Assembly: GCA_019244745.1 (NCBI GenBank)
Contig: JAFASF010000334.1
Coordinates: 1 to 51,265, forward strand
Origin: Solirubrobacterales bacterium
Lineage (GTDB): Bacteria; Actinomycetota; Thermoleophilia; Solirubrobacterales; Solirubrobacteraceae
Direction: 5' to 3'
DNA: 51,265 nt
The position numbers and the translations under genes were made by a program. Positions 13,086 to 23,039 of the stretch are shown in pieces. The notes beneath the pieces are model-generated. The model was not told the DNA's origin, did not search any database, and saw nothing but the letters and a program-made list of their open reading frames with translations. The number at the start of each line of letters is the position of its first letter. Position 1 is the stretch's first letter.

Positions 13086-14003
13086 ATGCCACGGGCGGAT
13101 GTCATCGCCCTGTTCGGGCCGACCGGGATCGGTAAGACGGAGATCGCGATCGAGCTTGGACGGGCGCTGCGCCGGCTAGGAGAGCGTCCGGTCGCCGTAT
13201 CGGCCGACGCGCTCCAGGTGTACAGCGGGCTGGAGACGCTTACGGGGGCCGCGGACGCGCACGAGCGCTCGCAGCTCGATCATCGGCTGATCTCGTTCCT
13301 GCCGATCGACGCAGCGTTCAGCGCTGGGCAGTACGCCGAGCTCGCGCACGCCGAGATCGATGCCCTGCTCGAGGCCGGAGACCGTCCGATCGTGGTCGGC
13401 GGCACCGGTCTGTACCTGCGTGCCGCTCTCACCGACCTCAGCCTGAGGCCGCCGCCGGCGGAGGGGGCGCGCGAACGGTGGATCGCCGAGCTCGAGCGGC
13501 GTGGCCCGCAGGCGCTCCACGCCGTGCTCCGAGAGCGGGCGCCGTGGGCCGCGGATGAGGTCGAGGCCAACGACCGGCAACGCGTCGTGCGCGCGCTCGA
13601 GCTGCTCGACGCGGGCGAGCTTGAACCGCCGGCCGAGGAATCGCAGCTTTGGACGGCGGACGTGCGCCACCCGACGCTTCTGGTCGGGCTCGCGATGGAG
13701 CGTGAGCAGCTATATGAACGCATCGACGCCCGCGTCGATCGGATGGTCGCGGCCGGCGCCGCCGAGGAGGTTCGTCGCGCGAACGCAGCTGGAGCCTCGG
13801 CGACGGCACGTAAGGCACTCGGCTTTGCGGAGCTGCTCGCCGGCGACGTCGACGCGATGAGGAGGCGTACGCGCAATTACGCGCGCCGCCAGCTCACTTG
13901 GATGCGAAAGCTCGCCGACGTCAACGTGATCGACACCACAGACCGGAGCGCGTCGGAGGTGGCGGAGGAGATCCTGGTCTCGTGGGTCAGGGGAGGGGAA
14001 TGA
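13086..14003 (+). CDS. miaA: tRNA dimethylallyltransferase MiaA
   Basis: MiaA transfers a dimethylallyl group to A37 of tRNAs, the step before MiaB. The 305-residue protein has the P-loop GPTGIGKT (residues 11-18), the DALQVYSGLETLTG segment, VVGGTGLYLRAAL, and the C-terminal RNYARRQLTWMRK motif that contacts tRNA. The open frame extends far upstream, but family alignment puts the start at ATG 13086. The last 17 bases overlap the glycosyltransferase gene on the other strand. Confidence 0.95.
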   Translation: MPRADVIALFGPTGIGKTEIAIELGRALRRLGERPVAVSADALQVYSGLETLTGAADAHERSQLDHRLISFLPIDAAFSAGQYAELAHAEIDALLEAGDRPIVVGGTGLYLRAALTDLSLRPPPAEGARERWIAELERRGPQALHAVLRERAPWAADEVEANDRQRVVRALELLDAGELEPPAEESQLWTADVRHPTLLVGLAMEREQLYERIDARVDRMVAAGAAEEVRRANAAGASATARKALGFAELLAGDVDAMRRRTRNYARRQLTWMRKLADVNVIDTTDRSASEVAEEILVSWVRGGE

Positions 14004-15306
14004 ACGGGTAAAGGACGACCGCCGCGCCGGCGACCGCGGCGCCGGCGACCCACACCGGGATGGACCCGAATCGCGCTCGGAGCCGCCCCAGCAGCCCGAC
14101 CGCCCCCAGGTAGAGCCCCGGCATCACGATCACCATGTAGTACAGGTAGCTGGTTCGCTGCCAGATCAGGCTGAGCAGGACGAACGGCAGGAACGTGCCG
14201 AGAAACCAGGCGAGGCCCACGAGCTCCACCTCGTCCGCCCGACGTCGAGCCCACACGGCGGCGATCGCGGCCACGATCAGGCCGGGGATCGCCAACGCGA
14301 GAATCGGGGGACTGATCAGGCCGAGGAAGTGAGCCTCGGGGTGCACGCCGAATAGGCCATCGGCGGGGTGCGCGGGATTGATGTTCAGGTAGGTGATCGG
14401 CTTGTAGTCAACGAGCCACTGCCAGGGGTAGGAGGCGATCCCCTGCGGCCCGTGCGGGCTGGTCTGGTGGGCGGCGTAGCTCAGCATGTGACGCATCTGC
14501 CCGAGAGCTCCACCGCCGACTCGCCGCCCGGCGACTGGATCGTAGGGTGGCGCGAGCTGTTCGAGCAGGGAGAGCAGCGCGAACAACGCCACCGCGGTCG
14601 CGGCCACCGACGTGCCGAACCGAACCGCCCCGACTTTGAGCTGCGTGGCTCTCGTCTCCCTGAGGAGCCTCAGGCATTCGAGCACCGCAAACACGACCAG
14701 GGCGTAGACCGCGACCTCCTTGGCGGACATGCCGATTGCCACCAGCAAGCCGGCGAGGAGCGGCCGTCCTCGGAGATACAGCGCGACCCCGAAGATCATG
14801 GGCGCCAGCGCATAGACGTCGAGCGTCCCAATCCGGCTGTGGACGAGGAGCAGGTTGTCGCAGGCCATAAGTGCCGCGGCCCCGAGCGCCGGCCACGGGC
14901 CACCGCCGGCCGAGCGCACCAGAACGAACATGCCGACGATCGCCAACGTCCCGAACACGAGGCTCCCCAACCGCCAGGCGAGTGGACCGTCGCCGAACAG
15001 CTCTATCGAGCCGGCGATGATCAGCTTGGCGAGCTGCGGATGCTCCGCGTTGGGATCGACGCCGGACGGGCTCCCCGCGTAGTGCTCACCCGGCGGCGGC
15101 TGCAGGCCGGCGATCACCCGGGCGGCGTTGACGTAGTACGCCTCGTCGAAGATCAACACGTGATCCGACGCCGAGCGGCACGGGGCGCGGCACGGCTCGC
15201 CGAGCAGCGCCACGCGGGCAGCCAGCGAAAGCGCGCACACGCACGCGAGAAGCACCAGCGGAAGCGAGCGGTGCCGGCCTATAAACGACTTCAGGTGGTG
15301 GGCCAT
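13987..15306 (-). CDS. PMT-type glycosyltransferase, integral membrane
   Basis: A 439-residue polytopic membrane protein of the dolichyl-phosphate-mannose/ArnT (GT-C) superfamily. The first luminal loop carries the acidic pair D54-E55 in IFDEAYYVNAARVIAG and the EHPQLAKLI segment seen in PMT-like enzymes. About nine to eleven hydrophobic stretches follow (for example LAWRLGSLVFGTLAIVGMFVLV, GLLVAIGMSAKEVAVYALVVF). These enzymes move a sugar from a polyprenyl phosphate to protein or lipid outside the membrane; the acceptor here is unknown. The gene lies between miaA and dapF on the opposite strand. Confidence 0.85.
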   Translation of the reverse strand: MAHHLKSFIGRHRSLPLVLLACVCALSLAARVALLGEPCRAPCRSASDHVLIFDEAYYVNAARVIAGLQPPPGEHYAGSPSGVDPNAEHPQLAKLIIAGSIELFGDGPLAWRLGSLVFGTLAIVGMFVLVRSAGGGPWPALGAAALMACDNLLLVHSRIGTLDVYALAPMIFGVALYLRGRPLLAGLLVAIGMSAKEVAVYALVVFAVLECLRLLRETRATQLKVGAVRFGTSVAATAVALFALLSLLEQLAPPYDPVAGRRVGGGALGQMRHMLSYAAHQTSPHGPQGIASYPWQWLVDYKPITYLNINPAHPADGLFGVHPEAHFLGLISPPILALAIPGLIVAAIAAVWARRRADEVELVGLAWFLGTFLPFVLLSLIWQRTSYLYYMVIVMPGLYLGAVGLLGRLRARFGSIPVWVAGAAVAGAAVVLYPFIPLP

Positions 15307-15341: not shown

Positions 15342-16193
15342 GTGAACTTCGAGAAGTGGCAAGCGCTCGGCAACGACTACCTGATTGTCGAGGAGATGGG
15401 CCTCCCGTTCGAGTTGACGCCGCCCCGCGTCCGCGCGTTGTGCACGCCGCACACGGGAGTGTCCGCCGACGGGATCGTGCTGCTCTCGCCCCCGGGGGAT
15501 CCGGGGCACGTGGCCCGGCTGCGGATCTTCAATCCCGACGGTTCGGAGGCCGAGCTATCCGGCAACGGGCTGCGAGAAGCGGCCCTGTATATGCGCCGCC
15601 GGGGCTGGACGACCTCGGATACGTTCTCGATCCTGACCGCGGCCGGAGAGATCAAGCCGAAGATCGTCTCCCCGACCGAGTCCGCCGTCGACATGGGACG
15701 GGCACGCCTGCAAAGCGACGACTTCCCAGCCGGTCCCCCGGACGGGAGGGGAGAGCTCACCGCTGCGGGGCGCACGTGGCGCTTCCAACACGTGCAGGTC
15801 GGAAACCCCCAGTGCGCGATCCGCATCGCCGGCGAGCCCGACCTCGACGAGCTGGATCTGCCGGCGATCGGCCCCGGGATCGAGCGCCACGAGCTGTTCC
15901 CGAACCGCACGAACGTCTCCTGGTTCGCGGTGCAGGACCCGGGTCGTATCCGAGCGCGGATCTTCGAGCGGGGGGTGGGGGAGACGTCGGCCAGCGGAAC
16001 CGGCGCGGCCGGCGCCGCGGTCGCTCACGTCCTCCAGGGCGGATCGTCTCCCGTCGCCGTGGCCCTCGACGGCGGCGAGCTGACCGTCGCAGTCGCGGAT
16101 GATCTGCAAATCAACCTGAGCGGGTGGGCGGTCCCTGTGTTCCGCGGCACGCTCGCCGATGAGTTCGTCAAGGAGTTGCATGAGATCCAGTAG
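15342..16193 (+). CDS. dapF: Diaminopimelate epimerase homologue with both catalytic cysteines replaced by serine
   Basis: DapF converts LL- to meso-diaminopimelate for lysine and peptidoglycan. The 283-residue protein has the full family pattern: LGNDY near the N-terminus, RIFNPDGSEAELSGNG, VGNPQCAI, then ERGVGETSASGTGAAG. In the family the two bases of catalysis are cysteines in CGNG and ACGSG/ACGTG. Here codon 73 (TCC, 15558-15560) and codon 218 (AGC, 15993-15995) both encode Ser. Everything else around them is conserved. The start is GTG 15342. dapL overlaps the 3' end, so the pair is an operon. Activity as an epimerase is uncertain. Confidence 0.88.
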   Translation: MNFEKWQALGNDYLIVEEMGLPFELTPPRVRALCTPHTGVSADGIVLLSPPGDPGHVARLRIFNPDGSEAELSGNGLREAALYMRRRGWTTSDTFSILTAAGEIKPKIVSPTESAVDMGRARLQSDDFPAGPPDGRGELTAAGRTWRFQHVQVGNPQCAIRIAGEPDLDELDLPAIGPGIERHELFPNRTNVSWFAVQDPGRIRARIFERGVGETSASGTGAAGAAVAHVLQGGSSPVAVALDGGELTVAVADDLQINLSGWAVPVFRGTLADEFVKELHEIQ

Positions 16194-17340
16194 GCGCCTC
16201 GAGCGGATCCCGCCGTACCTGTTCGCCGAGCTCGAGCGAAAGCTCGCCGCCAAGCGGGCGGCCGGCGTCGACGTGATCAGCCTCGGCATCGGAGACCCGG
16301 ACATGCCCACCTATGCGCCAATCGTGGACGCGGCCCAGAGGGCGGTGGCCGATCCGAGTACCCATCGCTACCCGTCCAATCGCGGGCGCCCGGAGTTTCG
16401 CGAGGCGGTGGCCGCCTTCTACGCCCGTCGGTTCGGCGTCGAGCTCGACCCCGAGACCGAGGTGATGCCGGCGATCGGGGCCAAGGAGTGCATCTTCAAC
16501 CTCAACCTGGCGTTCCTGGACCCCGGTGATGTCGCGCTGGCCTCGGATCCGGGCTACCCGGTCTACACTGGCGGCCCGCTGCTCGCCGGGGGTGACCCCG
16601 TGCTGATGCCGCTGCTGGCGGACCGCGGTTTCTCCCCGGACCTCGGGCGGATCCCGCAAGACGTGCTCCACCGCGCGCGACTGATGTTCATCAACTACCC
16701 GAACAACCCCACGGGCGCGGTCGTGCCGGACGGCCTGTTCGAGCAAGTGGCCGAGCTGGGCGCCCGTCACGACATCCTGGTGGTGCACGACAACTCATAC
16801 AGCGAGATCACGTTCGACGGCTACGTGGCGCCTTCGTTCCTCCAGACGCCGGGCGCCAAGGAGACGGGCGTCGAGGTGTTCTCCCTGTCGAAGGGCTACA
16901 ACATGACCGGATGGCGGTGCGCCGCGATCGTCGGCAACGCCGAGGCCATCGCGCGCTACTGGCAGCTCAAGTCGAACATCGACTCCGGCTTGTTCGATGC
17001 GGTGCAGCTCGCGGGCGCGGCGGCGCTGGCGCCCGAGGTCGATTCCGAGGTGGAGGCGATGAACGCGCTCTACACCCGGCGGCGCGATCTCGTCTGCGAT
17101 GCGCTCGCCGAGGCGGGTGTGAACGTCACCCCACCCAGGGGGACGATCTACGTCTGGGCGCCGATCCCGCCGGGCTTCGAATCCGCCGCGGCCTACTGCG
17201 AATACGTGCTCGAGGAGGCGGCCGTCGCGATCACGCCGGGCGGTGCGTACGGCCCCAGCGGAGAAGGGTTCTTCCGGATCTCGCTGACCACCCCCGACGA
17301 TCGGCTGCTCGAGGCGGTGAAGCGGCTCCGAAGGCTCTAG
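16180..17340 (+). CDS. dapL: LL-diaminopimelate aminotransferase
   Basis: DapL makes LL-diaminopimelate in one step from tetrahydrodipicolinate and glutamate, bypassing the acylated route. The 386-residue class I/II aminotransferase matches the shorter DapL type: PPYLFAELERK at the start, ISLGIGDPDMPT, NYPNNPTGA, and the PLP lysine K238 in SLSKGYNMTGWR. I choose ATG 16180, preceded by AAGGAG and overlapping the dapF end by 14 bases; the open frame extends seven codons further upstream. The tight link to dapF supports a role in lysine and wall synthesis rather than a general aminotransferase. Confidence 0.88.
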   Translation: MRSSRRLERIPPYLFAELERKLAAKRAAGVDVISLGIGDPDMPTYAPIVDAAQRAVADPSTHRYPSNRGRPEFREAVAAFYARRFGVELDPETEVMPAIGAKECIFNLNLAFLDPGDVALASDPGYPVYTGGPLLAGGDPVLMPLLADRGFSPDLGRIPQDVLHRARLMFINYPNNPTGAVVPDGLFEQVAELGARHDILVVHDNSYSEITFDGYVAPSFLQTPGAKETGVEVFSLSKGYNMTGWRCAAIVGNAEAIARYWQLKSNIDSGLFDAVQLAGAAALAPEVDSEVEAMNALYTRRRDLVCDALAEAGVNVTPPRGTIYVWAPIPPGFESAAAYCEYVLEEAAVAITPGGAYGPSGEGFFRISLTTPDDRLLEAVKRLRRL

Positions 17341-17389: not shown

Positions 17390-18730
17390 ATGAGTTCAGT
17401 GCAGCGAAGCCGTCACGGACGCACGCAGGCGTCCCCATACGCTGCCAATGGGCAGCGGCCCGGTGGGCGTGCGCGCCAGCGCGCCTACCTGATCGCCGCG
17501 CTGCCCGACGGCGAGCCGGAGGAGCTGACAGAACTCCGGGAGCTGTTGCGCACGGCGGGAGTCGCGGCGGTCGGCGAGCTCGTCCAGCGGCGCGAGCACC
17601 CACACCCCAACGCGTACCTCGGGCCGGGCAAGGTCGAAGAGCTCAAGGCGGAGCTCGCGCGATCGGACGCGAACCTGGTGGCGTGCGACGATGAGCTGTC
17701 TCCGCGCCAGGAGCGCAATCTCGAGCGGGCGCTCGGGCTCCCGGTGATCGACCGCACCGCGATCATCCTCGACATCTTCGCCTCACACGCTCACACCGCC
17801 GAGGGCAAGCTCCAGGTCGAGCTCGCCCAGCTCGAGTACAACCTGGCGCGAATGCGGGGCCTGTGGTCCCACCTGGAGCGGCTCGGGGCCGGGAGGATCG
17901 ACGGGGGCATCGGGACGCGGGGCCCGGGAGAGACCCAGATCGAGACCGACCGGCGGCTGGCGCGCGACCGGATCGCCGCGCTCAAGCGTAGGCTCGGGCG
18001 GGTGCGCTCGAGCCGCTCGGTCATGCGGGCAGAGCGCGAGCGCGCGCACCTGCCCCGAGTCGCGCTGGCGGGCTACACCAACGCCGGTAAGTCGACGCTG
18101 CTGAACGCGCTGACCGGCTCCGAGGTCGGCGTCCGCGACCGGCTGTTCCACACCCTCGATCCCACCACCCGGGTGCTCCACGCCGGCGGGCGCGATTACC
18201 TATTGACCGACACCGTGGGCTTCATCCGCAAGCTGCCGCACCAGCTCGTGGAGGCGTTCGGCGCGACGCTCGAGGAGACACGGTTGGCCGATCTCATCCT
18301 GCACGTGGTCGACGCATCGGTCCCCGAGGCGGAGTTGTCCGCGATGACCCGCGCGGTCGAGGACGTCCTGCTCGAGATCGGAGCCGACGCGGCGCCGCAG
18401 CTGCTGGTGCTCGCCAAGGCCGACCAGCTCGATCCCGAGCAGCGAGAGGAGCTCGAGCACGCCCGTCCGGACGCGATCCTCGTGTCCGCGTTCACCGGCG
18501 AGGGCCTCGAGGGTCTCGCCCAGGCGATCGAGGAACGGTTCGCCGAGACGCTGCACGAGGTCGAGCTCCTGATCCCCTACGACGAGGGCGGGCGGCTCGC
18601 CGAGCTGCACGAGATCGCGGGCGACCTGGAGCGCGAGGAGACCTCGGACGGAGTTCGCGTGCTCGCGCGCTTGCCCGCGCCGATCGCCTCGCGCTATCAG
18701 CAGTTTGCGCTGAGCAGCCGGTACGGATGA
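17390..18730 (+). CDS. hflX: GTPase HflX
   Basis: HflX is a ribosome-associated GTPase that splits stalled or stressed ribosomes. The 446-residue protein has the N-terminal HflX domain ([28 protein letters not shown]), the glycine-rich linker [18 protein letters not shown], and the G domain with G1 GYTNAGKS at residues 228-235, G3 DTVGF and a shifted G4 AKAD. The ATG at 17390 lacks an obvious ribosome-binding site. The dut gene starts within its last codons (ATGA overlap). Confidence 0.95.
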
Positions 18731-20213: not shown

Positions 20214-20954
20214 CTAAACACCCGACGCGCGCCTCGCCTCGGCATGGGCGGCCCGCTCGAGGTCGTCGTTGAGCGCGGGGAGAGGATCGGGAAGACCGAG
20301 CGCCGTGGCGATCAGCCAATCGGCGAACCACGTGTTCTTGGGCAGCAGCGGGCCGTGCAGGTAGGTGCCGACCACGCTCCCCTCGCGGACGCCCTCGAGG
20401 CCGTCGGTCCCGTTGTTTCCGTGTCCGGCGAGTACCCGGCCGAGCGCCTTTGTCCCCGGGCCGAGGTGGGTTCGCCCGCCGTGGTTCTCAAAGCCCGCGA
20501 GCACCCGGAGCTCGCCCGGCTCCAGCTCGAGCTCGATCGCGGCGTTGCCGATCAGGCGCTCGCCGTTCCCGCGCACGGTCACCAGGTCGACCAACTCGAT
20601 ACCCGGCAGCGTCTCGTCGCCCAGCCGGTAGGAGTGCCCGAGGAGCTGATACCCCCCGCAGACCGCGAGGATCGTGCCCCCGCGGCCCGCGACGGCGTGC
20701 AGCGCGTCGCGTTTGACCTCCGCGAGATCCAGCGCGCAGAGCCGCTGATCGCGGTCCTGGCCGCCGCCGATGTAATACAGATCCGCGCCCTCGGGGTCGA
20801 GCTCGTCGCCGAGGCTGCTGGCGTGCAGCTCGAAGCCGATCCCGCGCCACTCGCATCGCGACTCGAGCACGAGCAGATTGCCGCGGTCGGCATAGATGTT
20901 CATCAGGTCCGGATAGAGCGCGCAGACTCGGAGCGTGGGCATGCCCTCAGCCAT
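20214..20954 (-). CDS. gatD: Lipid II isoglutaminyl synthase, glutaminase subunit GatD
   Basis: GatD supplies ammonia from glutamine to MurT, which amidates the D-glutamate of lipid II. The 246-residue CobB/CobQ-like amidotransferase has the nucleophile C99 in AVCGGYQLLGH and the catalytic H200 in YLHGPLLPKN, as in known GatD. The start is ATG 20954 (a second ATG is four codons in). It overlaps the preceding methyltransferase gene by eight bases. MurT is two genes upstream in the same operon. Confidence 0.92.
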   Translation of the reverse strand: MAEGMPTLRVCALYPDLMNIYADRGNLLVLESRCEWRGIGFELHASSLGDELDPEGADLYYIGGGQDRDQRLCALDLAEVKRDALHAVAGRGGTILAVCGGYQLLGHSYRLGDETLPGIELVDLVTVRGNGERLIGNAAIELELEPGELRVLAGFENHGGRTHLGPGTKALGRVLAGHGNNGTDGLEGVREGSVVGTYLHGPLLPKNTWFADWLIATALGLPDPLPALNDDLERAAHAEARRASGV

Positions 20955-21660
20955 GAAGCATCACCACGGCGCTCCCGACGTAGTCATGCGTCTCGGGCAC
21001 CGCGCGTCGGCCGGCCGGCCTCAGGCCGACGTCGCCGGCCTCGCGCTCGAGCTCGTCCGGAGTGAGACGATCCAGATGGATCGCATCCTGCTCGATCGTG
21101 CGCTCGCCGGAGACGCTGATCGTCTCCCGCCGGCGCTCGAGGACGAACCCTCCGGCGTCCGTGCGCACGGCCGTGGGCTGGCTCGAGTACACCACGCCGT
21201 CGAACTCTCGGATGTCCGGCAGCGGCCCGGGTAATCCAGCGACGGGCTCGTAGAGTTCGAGTTGATCGGCGATGGCAACCGCGACGATCGCCCCGTCCCT
21301 CATGTGGCGCCGGGCACACCGCAGGAACCGCCGACGGCCCTCGGGGCCGCCAAGCAGCTGGATCGTCTGCATGGGCACGAGAATCAGCGCGAAGCGCCGC
21401 GAGAGCTCGAATTCGCGCGCGTCGGCCACGACGGTTTGTAGAGGGAGCCCCGCAGCCCGGCGCGCCAGCTCGGCCGCCAGCGCGGGGTCGTTATCGAGCG
21501 CGGTCACGTCGTGGCCGGCGCGGGCGAGCTCGCATGCCACGCGGCCCGTACCCGCCCCGATCTCCAGCACCGGATCGCCGTACTCGCCCGCCAGCGCGCG
21601 CCACAGCGCCATGTCCTCTACATATGCGCCGCACTCGAGGTCGTGCCAGATCGTTCTCAC
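20947..21660 (-). CDS. Class I SAM-dependent methyltransferase within the murT-gatD operon
   Basis: A 237-residue methyltransferase with SAM-binding motif I VLEIGAGTGRVACELA, an acidic residue ending strand 2 (TALDND), and a motif II region (FALILVPMQTIQLLGG). The C-terminal half is a beta-rich substrate-side domain. I choose GTG 21660, which overlaps the murT stop (GTGA); the open frame upstream lies inside murT. Being wedged between murT and gatD with overlaps on both sides, it is probably made in step with them, but its substrate is unknown. Confidence 0.85.
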   Translation of the reverse strand: MRTIWHDLECGAYVEDMALWRALAGEYGDPVLEIGAGTGRVACELARAGHDVTALDNDPALAAELARRAAGLPLQTVVADAREFELSRRFALILVPMQTIQLLGGPEGRRRFLRCARRHMRDGAIVAVAIADQLELYEPVAGLPGPLPDIREFDGVVYSSQPTAVRTDAGGFVLERRRETISVSGERTIEQDAIHLDRLTPDELEREAGDVGLRPAGRRAVPETHDYVGSAVVMLHG

Positions 21661-23039
21661 CGCTGCCGCTCCCAAAACCGCGGGACGTGCCCCCGGGAGG
21701 CGAGCTCGTCCCGCAGCTCGAGCAGGGCGGTGTACGTCGGGAGGACGAAGAGCTCGCCCCTCGGAACCGCGGCCAGCGCGTCCTCGAGCGCCGCGGATAC
21801 CGACCCGGCGACGTGCAGGCGGTCGACCGGAACCCGGGCGTACTTGAGCCTCAGCGCGAGCTCCGCCGCCCGCGCACCGGCACACGTGACGCGGCGGACG
21901 CTCCCGGCGATCATCTCGAAGTCGGCGTCCCAGATCCACGAGATGTCCTTCCCATCGGCCGTGTGGTCGTTGAGGATCGCGAGCAGATTCAGCGGAGCGG
22001 CCTCGAGCACGAGCGTGCGCAAGATCTCGTTGGCCCCGGCCGGGTTCTTGATCAACAGGATCGTCACGTCGACGCCGCCCAGCGCAAGGCGCTCGGCGCG
22101 TCCGAACGGGGGCCTCGAGGCCGCGAGCCCGGCTGCGATGGTTTGAAGGGGCGCATCGAGCGCCAGGCACAGCGCCGCGGCGCCGAGGGCGTTGTAGACG
22201 TTGTACAGACCGGGGAGGGGGAGCTGTATGGGTGTGGCGCCCACCGGCGCGCGCAGCGCAAAACTGGCATCCCGGGTCCCATGCAGGGTGATCTCCTCGG
22301 CCGCGACCGAAGGCTTGGGCCGCTCGTGCCCACACGCCGGACAGCGGTAACGGCCGAGATGGCCGAGGTAGATGGCCTCGTATGCGTACTCCGTGCCGCA
22401 CCGGCGGCAGTGCTTGGAGTCGGAGGCGTGCTGCATCTCGGGGACCGCGATCGACCGGTCCTCGACCCCGAAGTACGTGACGTTCGGCGCGTCCCGGCCG
22501 AGATCCGCGAGCAGCGGATCGTCCGCGTTCACTATCAGCCGCGTGGTCTCGGGTAGGGCCTGAACCACCGCCGCCCAGCGCTCGGCGATCGTCTCGAGCT
22601 CGCCGGCGCGATCGAGCTGGTCGCGGAACAGGTTGAGCAGCAGCAGGGCCCGCGGGGCGAGTGCGGGAGCGACACGGTCCAGCCAGAGCTCGTCGAGTTC
22701 GAACAGGCCGAGCTCACCGTCAATCCGGGCCCCGCGGGATGCCGAAAGCAGCGTCGAGGCGACGCCACCCGCCATGTTTGCCCCGGCCCGGTTGCGGAGC
22801 GGCGTTATGCCGGCGCGCGCCAGCACCGCCGCGCTCATCGCGGCGGTGGTCGTCTTTCCGTTGGTCGCCGAGATGACCACCGAGCCTCGCGGCAGCCGCG
22901 CGGCGAGCTCCTCGATCGCGTCCGGCTCGAGGGCGATCAGCAGCCTGCCCGGGAGGTTCGTGCCGCCCCGACGGCCCGTGCGCCGGGCGATCCCTCCGAC
23001 CGCCCGGGCGGCGAAGACCTTTGCCGCCAGCAGCGTCAT
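21657..23039 (-). CDS. murT: Lipid II isoglutaminyl synthase, ligase subunit MurT
   Basis: MurT is the Mur-ligase-like ATPase that activates the D-Glu carboxylate of lipid II for amidation. The 460-residue protein has the P-loop ATNGKTTT (58-65), the MurT zinc ribbon with C211, C214, C233 and C236, and the C-terminal Mur-ligase domain (PFGRAERL, ILLIKNPAGANEIL, ILNDHTADGKDISWIWD). The start is ATG 23039, overlapping the lipid kinase stop by four bases. Amidation normally aids cross-linking and lysozyme resistance. Confidence 0.95.
   Translation of the reverse strand: MTLLAAKVFAARAVGGIARRTGRRGGTNLPGRLLIALEPDAIEELAARLPRGSVVISATNGKTTTAAMSAAVLARAGITPLRNRAGANMAGGVASTLLSASRGARIDGELGLFELDELWLDRVAPALAPRALLLLNLFRDQLDRAGELETIAERWAAVVQALPETTRLIVNADDPLLADLGRDAPNVTYFGVEDRSIAVPEMQHASDSKHCRRCGTEYAYEAIYLGHLGRYRCPACGHERPKPSVAAEEITLHGTRDASFALRAPVGATPIQLPLPGLYNVYNALGAAALCLALDAPLQTIAAGLAASRPPFGRAERLALGGVDVTILLIKNPAGANEILRTLVLEAAPLNLLAILNDHTADGKDISWIWDADFEMIAGSVRRVTCAGARAAELALRLKYARVPVDRLHVAGSVSAALEDALAAVPRGELFVLPTYTALLELRDELASRGHVPRFWERQR

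Follow-up and report, generated by a model that had tools for sequence, protein, structure and literature searches.

Serine at both catalytic cysteine positions in a diaminopimelate epimerase homologue of Solirubrobacterales and related bacteria

The diaminopimelate (DAP) epimerase DapF serves as a standard example of an enzyme that epimerises with two thiols and no cofactor: a thiolate and a thiol are described as working within a closed, nearly water-free site (PMC12039745), and the catalytic residues named for the Haemophilus influenzae enzyme are Cys73, His159, Glu208 and Cys217 (PMC3581254). A contig stretch of 51,265 nucleotides from a Solirubrobacterales bacterium (JAFASF010000334.1, positions 1 to 51,265, assembly GCA_019244745.1), called the window below, carries a dapF homologue with serine in place of both cysteines. 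Can such a protein still epimerise DAP, and where would meso-DAP come from if it cannot? Judging from the comparisons presented below, we consider it probable (roughly 0.6) that the protein is a working epimerase that uses the serine pair as acid and base, and that it is the sole DapF of its genome.

A DapF protein without its catalytic cysteines

The gene starts with GTG at 15342 and ends with a TAG stop codon (16191-16193). Its product belongs to the DapF family by hidden Markov model (HMM) scores (192.1 bits against TIGR00652, cut-off 114.65; 131.2 bits against PF01678, cut-off 34.7) as well as by fold. Indeed, the AlphaFold2 model (mean predicted local distance difference test score, pLDDT, of 96.0) has DapF 8qzy_A as its top Foldseek match (template modelling, TM, scores of 0.89/0.91), and ranks 1-26 of that search consist of 24 DapF and two O-ureidoserine racemase structures. 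A sequence-only reading of the locus had pointed to TCC at codon 73 and AGC at codon 218 as serine codons at the sites of the two catalytic cysteines, and reading of the codons confirmed both. It had also regarded the surrounding motifs as intact, which is true of the active-site columns other than 73, 218 and 157; the histidine of the GNPH motif, overlooked at that time, is Gln157 in the window protein (this residue was equated with His159 of H. influenzae DapF through the motif). Since it lacks the defining cysteine pair, we place the protein in the DapF family as a Ser/Ser variant and do not class it as a canonical DAP epimerase.

The AlphaFold model places the two serines directly ahead of the central helices 74-86 and 219-231; the cysteines of the DapF fold stand just before two central helices, as described for the histidine racemase HisR (PMC11602996). 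The only cysteines of the window protein are C34 and C158. The former is invariant within the order and occurs in 187 of the 206 Ser/Ser rows of our alignment (nine Ser/Ser rows are gapped there) versus 107 of the 142 Cys/Cys rows; the latter occurs in 152/206 versus 61/142 rows. We think it unlikely that either of them stands in for an active-site cysteine.

The residues N11, N64, N75, N155, N191, E209 and R210 of the substrate site are all present in the window protein. Together with D43 and R78, they are found in 129/129 rows taken as own-order (loci L003-L102 together with those of L177-L208, L278 and L279 that are Ser/Ser; named loci were assigned to the order by similarity) and in 29/29 Ser/Ser rows of two further families of the class Thermoleophilia, f7 and f11. 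Alanine mutants of eight residues of Corynebacterium glutamicum DapF are reported to be almost wholly inactive (PMC5296763), and these eight correspond by motif to N11, N64, N75, N155, N191, E209, R210 and T220; D43 and R78 were not among the residues mutated there. No second dapF, which would have spoken for a canonical enzyme elsewhere, was found with PF01678 and TIGR00652 in the window's genome (G000), an assembly that is 91% complete.

Distribution and evolution of the serine pair

The occurrence of a Ser/Ser DapF is real and general. A search of genomes of the order found DapF in 220 of 232; all 95 genomes with a near full-length row (at least 215 aligned residues; most others of the 220 were not fetched), including that of the window, have the Ser/Ser pair, and these represent 48 of 54 genera. 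The first 29 relatives (L004-L032), which lie within the order but outside the window's genome, were Ser/Ser without exception, and the conservation among relatives that the sequence-only reading had asked about is thus borne out, also by the 29 rows of f7 and f11. Ser73 and Ser218 belong to 46 columns that are invariant over 112 distinct sequences taken as own-order, in agreement with the earlier view that the substitutions are not a sign of decay. Additional named loci came from a public genome scan; the titles of most of them read Solirubrobacterales, Solirubrobacteraceae or Thermoleophilaceae, names that belong to the class Thermoleophilia. Among them, Ser/Ser was present in Solirubrobacter taibaiensis, Patulibacter americanus and a metagenome-assembled genome of Conexibacter; S. 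taibaiensis (L199/L278) and P. americanus (L187/L279), both cultured, have one TIGR00652 match each.

Other families of the class fall on either side. Family f7 (27/27 rows) and f11 (2/2) are entirely Ser/Ser, and families f5 (6 rows), f6 (5), f8 (11) and f10 (3) are entirely Cys/Cys. In f9, 12 Cys/Cys rows occur together with five Ser/Cys rows (L119, L122, L123, L125, L128), all of the latter from the genus g64, which also holds a Cys/Cys member (G251, L113). Many f7 homologues (L155-L163, L165-L173) are only ~220-240 amino acids long and have SGTS or SGSS as their second motif, and L155, L161 and L172 contain a stop within the matched frame. Furthermore, three f8 genomes (G245, G255, G285; 96-97% complete) yielded no TIGR00652 match, while their family relatives carry a Cys/Cys DapF; loss of dapF or a different route to meso-DAP is possible there.

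Outside the class, 42 of 69 Acidobacteriota rows are Ser/Ser, 22 Cys/Cys and three Cys/Ser (L295, L365, L377), with two readable at the second site only (Cys); the 50 rows from other Actinomycetota comprise 37 Cys/Cys, nine Ser/Cys, two Ser/Ser and two Cys/Ser (L396, L397). Both sets are partial and non-random, consisting of best-scoring and hand-picked rows (the latter, in Actinomycetota, chosen for low score and family spread), and their proportions are not prevalences. The Ser/Cys rows of other Actinomycetota come from several families (L383-L387, L389, L391, L312, L318), and Ser/Cys occurs also in a Methanophagales archaeon (L248). Across the 371 rows that remained after removal of the repeats L001 and L002 and of all rows in which less than 215 residues were aligned, Cys/Ser is rarer than Ser/Cys (5 vs 16). 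Three Acidobacteriota genomes contain a DapF-like gene that is divergent and has the motif ETLCCGTG (L432, L433 and L434 in G449, G460 and G424, respectively); it accompanies a Ser/Ser DapF in G449 and G460, and in G424 it is the sole DapF-type match.

Over 383 loci, some of which repeat the same gene, the first site is Ser in 228, Cys in 150 and a gap in five, and the second is Ser in 215, Cys in 161, Thr in two (apparently one Spirochaetota gene fetched twice) and a gap in five. Neither Ala nor Gly was seen at either site among these loci, even though one substitution is enough to turn a TCN serine codon into an alanine codon. Serine is retained while its codon alternates between TCN and AGY (114 distinct rows, including two from Acidobacteriota). 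As the sites change between Cys and Ser and Ala and Gly are unseen, the pattern argues for selection for a side chain able to pass protons, and against loss of function.

Gene trees were built from 223 of the 371 rows, with rows more than 72% identical within a type removed and sites 73 and 218 masked; they are rough (FastTree, and IQ-TREE with LG+G4 and a short search). They imply at least 10 (FastTree) or 11 (IQ-TREE) changes at site 73 and at least 11 or 12, respectively, at site 218. With a proteobacterial root, the IQ-TREE reconstruction gives nine Cys-to-Ser changes and two returns to Cys for each site, and one Cys-to-Thr change. Support is low (45) for the deep branch that leads to the Ser/Ser group of the class, and the returns to Cys might for this reason be separate gains of Ser instead.

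Other positions differ along with the pair. Residue 207 is Val, Thr or Ser in 142/142 Cys/Cys rows and Ile, Phe or Leu in 174/206 Ser/Ser rows; residue 217 is Ala in 128/142 and Ser in 156/206, respectively. The shifts resemble a repacking that accommodates the smaller hydroxyl group, with shared ancestry accounting for part of them. Residue 157 is His in all 142 Cys/Cys rows and Gln in all 129 rows of the order. As His is still present in 29/29 Ser/Ser rows of f7 and f11 and in 30 of the 48 remaining Ser/Ser rows, the order of events suggested is that the serine pair arose first and that His became dispensable afterwards.

Source of meso-diaminopimelate and possible roles of the protein

The product of lysA acts on meso-DAP, and lysA is present in all 60 genomes of a panel (59 over cut-off) in which the DapF pair is known for 47 (32 Ser/Ser, 10 Cys/Cys, 5 Ser/Cys). 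The window's genome has one dapF, a lysA and no meso-DAP dehydrogenase match over cut-off. Such a match was found in one panel genome only (G257, 422 bits), which has a Cys/Cys DapF (L257), and in none of another 25 genomes with a Ser/Ser DapF (23 from Acidobacteriota, plus the two isolates); weak partial matches below cut-off in six other panel genomes and seven of the 25 were disregarded. A bypass through this dehydrogenase was accordingly rejected for the Ser/Ser genomes searched. MurE scored over cut-off in 28/28 genomes searched, and the DNPR motif, the mark of a DAP-adding MurE, is present at 25 of the 28 loci. In addition, published chemotaxonomy reports meso-DAP as the amino acid of the wall in Solirubrobacterales (PMC3035278), and it has been described in a species of Solirubrobacter (PMC10722151). 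Taken together, lysA, MurE and these wall analyses indicate that meso-DAP is made, and the sole candidate enzyme found in the searched genomes is the Ser/Ser DapF.

The pathway we propose would start with DapL, which makes LL-DAP directly, and the Ser/Ser DapF would convert LL-DAP to meso-DAP for the cell wall and for lysine. One serine would act as the base on the α-carbon and the other as the acid from the opposite face, possibly helped by the helix dipole and by repacked surroundings in the closed, nearly water-free site, with Glu209 retained and Gln157 filling the place of His. The serine pair would have evolved repeatedly from a cysteine pair, for which the Ser/Cys and Cys/Ser forms are possible steps. 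A review attributes the difference of Cys from Ser and Thr to desolvation and a lower pKa (PMC8142540), and an active 4-hydroxyproline epimerase of the same fold is described to use a natural Ser/Cys pair (PMC4113996).

Several observations weigh against this proposal. Three of the four named catalytic residues are substituted in the order, Glu being kept. As the sequence-only reading had stated, single Cys-to-Ser changes impair enzymes of the DapF type: the DapF-like PddB retained <0.1% activity, with a similar result cited there for Mt-DapF (PMC8225329), and the activity of HisR was greatly reduced (PMC11602996). A Pseudomonas homologue of proline racemase with a Ser/Cys pair is reported to be inactive both as a proline racemase and as a hydroxyproline epimerase (PMC1964878), and the Ser-x-x-Asn motif that has been proposed to position the catalytic serine in the proline racemase family (PMC4113996) is absent from the window protein, which has Ser73-Gly-Asn-Gly76. 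Among the 48 Ser/Ser rows that belong neither to the order nor to f7/f11, N75 is kept in 47, R78 in 46 and N155 in 44 (the remaining DAP-binding residues in 48/48). In the Acidobacteriota genomes G449 and G460, the Ser/Ser DapF is accompanied by the divergent DapF-like gene mentioned above, whose second site is Cys, and a Spirochaetota genome (G381) has Thr at the second site in one copy and a Cys/Cys pair in another (L216/L273, L280); the Cys/Thr copy may have a different role. Finally, no DapF match was obtained in 12 of 232 genomes of the order and 14 of 199 of the class, and the published wall data come from members of the order other than the window's organism.

The strongest rival, which we still hold to be doubtful, is a pseudoenzyme that binds DAP, e.g., as a partner of DapL or as a DAP sensor, with meso-DAP being made by a non-homologous epimerase still to be identified. 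The loss of three catalytic residues in the order, the nearly dead laboratory Cys-to-Ser mutants (PMC8225329, PMC11602996), the overlap of dapF with dapL and the second role described for Escherichia coli DapF via RppH would all suit such a protein. However, no proton-incompetent residue occurs at either site in the 383 loci, a restriction that mere binding would not need; a separate epimerase would be required in each Ser/Ser lineage, and the searched Ser/Ser genomes have no over-cut-off DAP dehydrogenase. That the enzyme has another substrate was among the possibilities raised by the sequence-only reading; it would then be an epimerase or racemase for a similar compound (e.g., lanthionine or another diamino acid), with meso-DAP coming from elsewhere. 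The DapF fold has switched before, namely to histidine racemase (PMC11602996) and diaminobutyrate racemase (PMC8225329), but the order shows no variation in the residues that bind DAP, the top HMM is the DapF equivalog TIGR00652, the gene overlaps dapL, and its position between miaA and dapL is shared by 9/10 Cys/Cys loci of the class and by many with Ser/Ser; we regard this explanation as improbable.

A shade less probable again is the other alternative of that reading, namely that the lineage keeps LL-DAP in its wall and obtains lysine by another route. Given DapL, a Ser/Ser enzyme could be dispensable, but lysA is found throughout the panel, meso-DAP has been reported for the order and for Solirubrobacter in the papers cited above, and a dispensable gene would hardly retain its 46 invariant columns over 112 sequences. 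An assembly or sequencing error or a decaying pseudogene can be dismissed almost with certainty: the window assembly is fragmented (463 contigs), but the 95 concordant genomes include the single-contig G133 and G087, the two isolates agree, and the active site is intact apart from the three positions named. A working Ser/Ser pair, the remaining possibility of the earlier reading, is hence the one best supported by the comparative data. In a more general form, we lean towards the view that cysteine is not essential for DAP epimerases, and that Solirubrobacterales, other families of the class and many Acidobacteriota use a cofactor-free pair of two serines that evolved several times.

If so, the thiol is not what makes cofactor-free epimerisation possible. 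The Ser/Ser class would then provide test proteins for the removal of the α-carbon hydrogen from amino acids, with the single-site Ser/Cys forms as comparison proteins. DapF is also an antibacterial target for which cysteine-bonding inhibitors (aziridino-DAP) were made, and the Ser/Ser pair would mark bacteria in which thiol-directed inhibitors should fail. If the protein is inactive, an unrecognised epimerase must exist in these bacteria. A search of open-licence papers, which is weak evidence of novelty, found no report of a natural Ser/Ser DapF, and as far as this search shows either outcome would be new.

Gene neighbourhood and comparison with known systems

The features of the locus are compiled in Table 1. 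The reading frame of dapL (16159-17340) scores 522.7 bits against NF006756 (cut-off 507) and 503.9 bits against TIGR03540, below the cut-off of 593.25; from its ATG at 16180, it shares 14 nucleotides with the end of dapF. The coupling of the two genes proposed from the sequence is therefore real, although Cys/Cys loci of the class have this gene order as well. In a tblastn survey with the window proteins, in which many loci were short and other aminotransferases can match, a dapL-like gene followed dapF on the same strand in 24/40 loci of the order, 25/32 named Ser/Ser loci, 4/10 loci of f7/f11 and 9/10 class Cys/Cys loci. The coupling as a trait specific for Ser/Ser was rejected on account of this shared gene order.

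Table 1. Features of the dapF locus in the window
Feature	Position	Strand	Basis or remark
dapF homologue, Ser/Ser variant, 283 amino acids	15342..16193	+	TIGR00652, PF01678, AlphaFold2, Foldseek
Codon 73 (TCC), Ser for first catalytic Cys (LSGNG)	15558..15560	+	precedes helix 74-86 in the model
Codon 157, Gln for catalytic His of GNPH	15810..15812	+	alignment
Codons 209-210, Glu-Arg: catalytic Glu and substrate-binding Arg kept	15966..15971	+	206/206 Ser/Ser rows
Codon 218 (AGC), Ser for second catalytic Cys (ASGTG)	15993..15995	+	precedes helix 219-231 in the model
AGGAG, likely ribosome-binding site of dapL within the end of dapF	16171..16175	+	sequence; putative
dapL, LL-diaminopimelate aminotransferase	16180..17340	+	NF006756; start set from reading frame
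miaA, usual gene upstream of dapF in relatives	13086..14003	+	TIGR00174; start by reading
hflX, often downstream in relatives	17390..18730	+	TIGR03156

MiaA and HflX were recognised with 168.2 bits (TIGR00174, cut-off 148.65) and 426.9 bits (TIGR03156, cut-off 216.75), respectively. Between miaA and dapF, the minus strand encodes a predicted membrane protein (13987-15306), glycosyltransferase-like by reading, a relative of which was found at the same place in one among 40 order and 32 named loci. GatD-like (20214-20954) and MurT-like (21657-23039) genes are present nearby on the minus strand, both below the NCBIfam cut-offs; as such genes are linked to lipid II amidation, the stem peptide of the wall may be amidated.

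The window protein shares its fold, its HMM match, the DAP-binding Asn, Arg and Glu residues and its gene neighbours with canonical Cys/Cys DapF (TIGR00652; PDB 8qzy, 9mro, 4ijz, 1gqz, 5m47), but differs from it in Ser73 and Ser218 for the two cysteines and Gln157 for His. In Chlamydia, too, DapF works beside DapL. This bifunctional enzyme (NF038284; PMC5885031) has the DapF fold in common with the window protein, but keeps, according to that report, both cysteines and the histidine; the window protein scores 48.5 bits against NF038284 (cut-off 350) and is not assigned to the bifunctional DapF/glutamate racemases.

A natural serine at the first site of a DapF-like fold is described for the 4-hydroxyproline epimerase B9JQV3 (Ser/Cys) and the Ser/Thr dehydratase B9K4G4 (PMC4113996). 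They belong, however, to another family, the proline racemase superfamily, and act on other substrates, and B9JQV3 retains one catalytic cysteine whereas the window protein has neither. With E values up to 0.001, the window protein matched no proline racemase family model: Pfam gave PF01678 only, and NCBIfam two DapF models. Close parallels in residue and place, one site at a time, are two mutants of the H. influenzae enzyme, C73S and C217S (PDB 2q9h and 2q9j; Foldseek ranks 9 and 13), which are stated to have been constructed for the hindrance of catalysis that the change brings about (PMC12039745). These are engineered single changes, whereas the window protein represents a natural double replacement that extends throughout its order.
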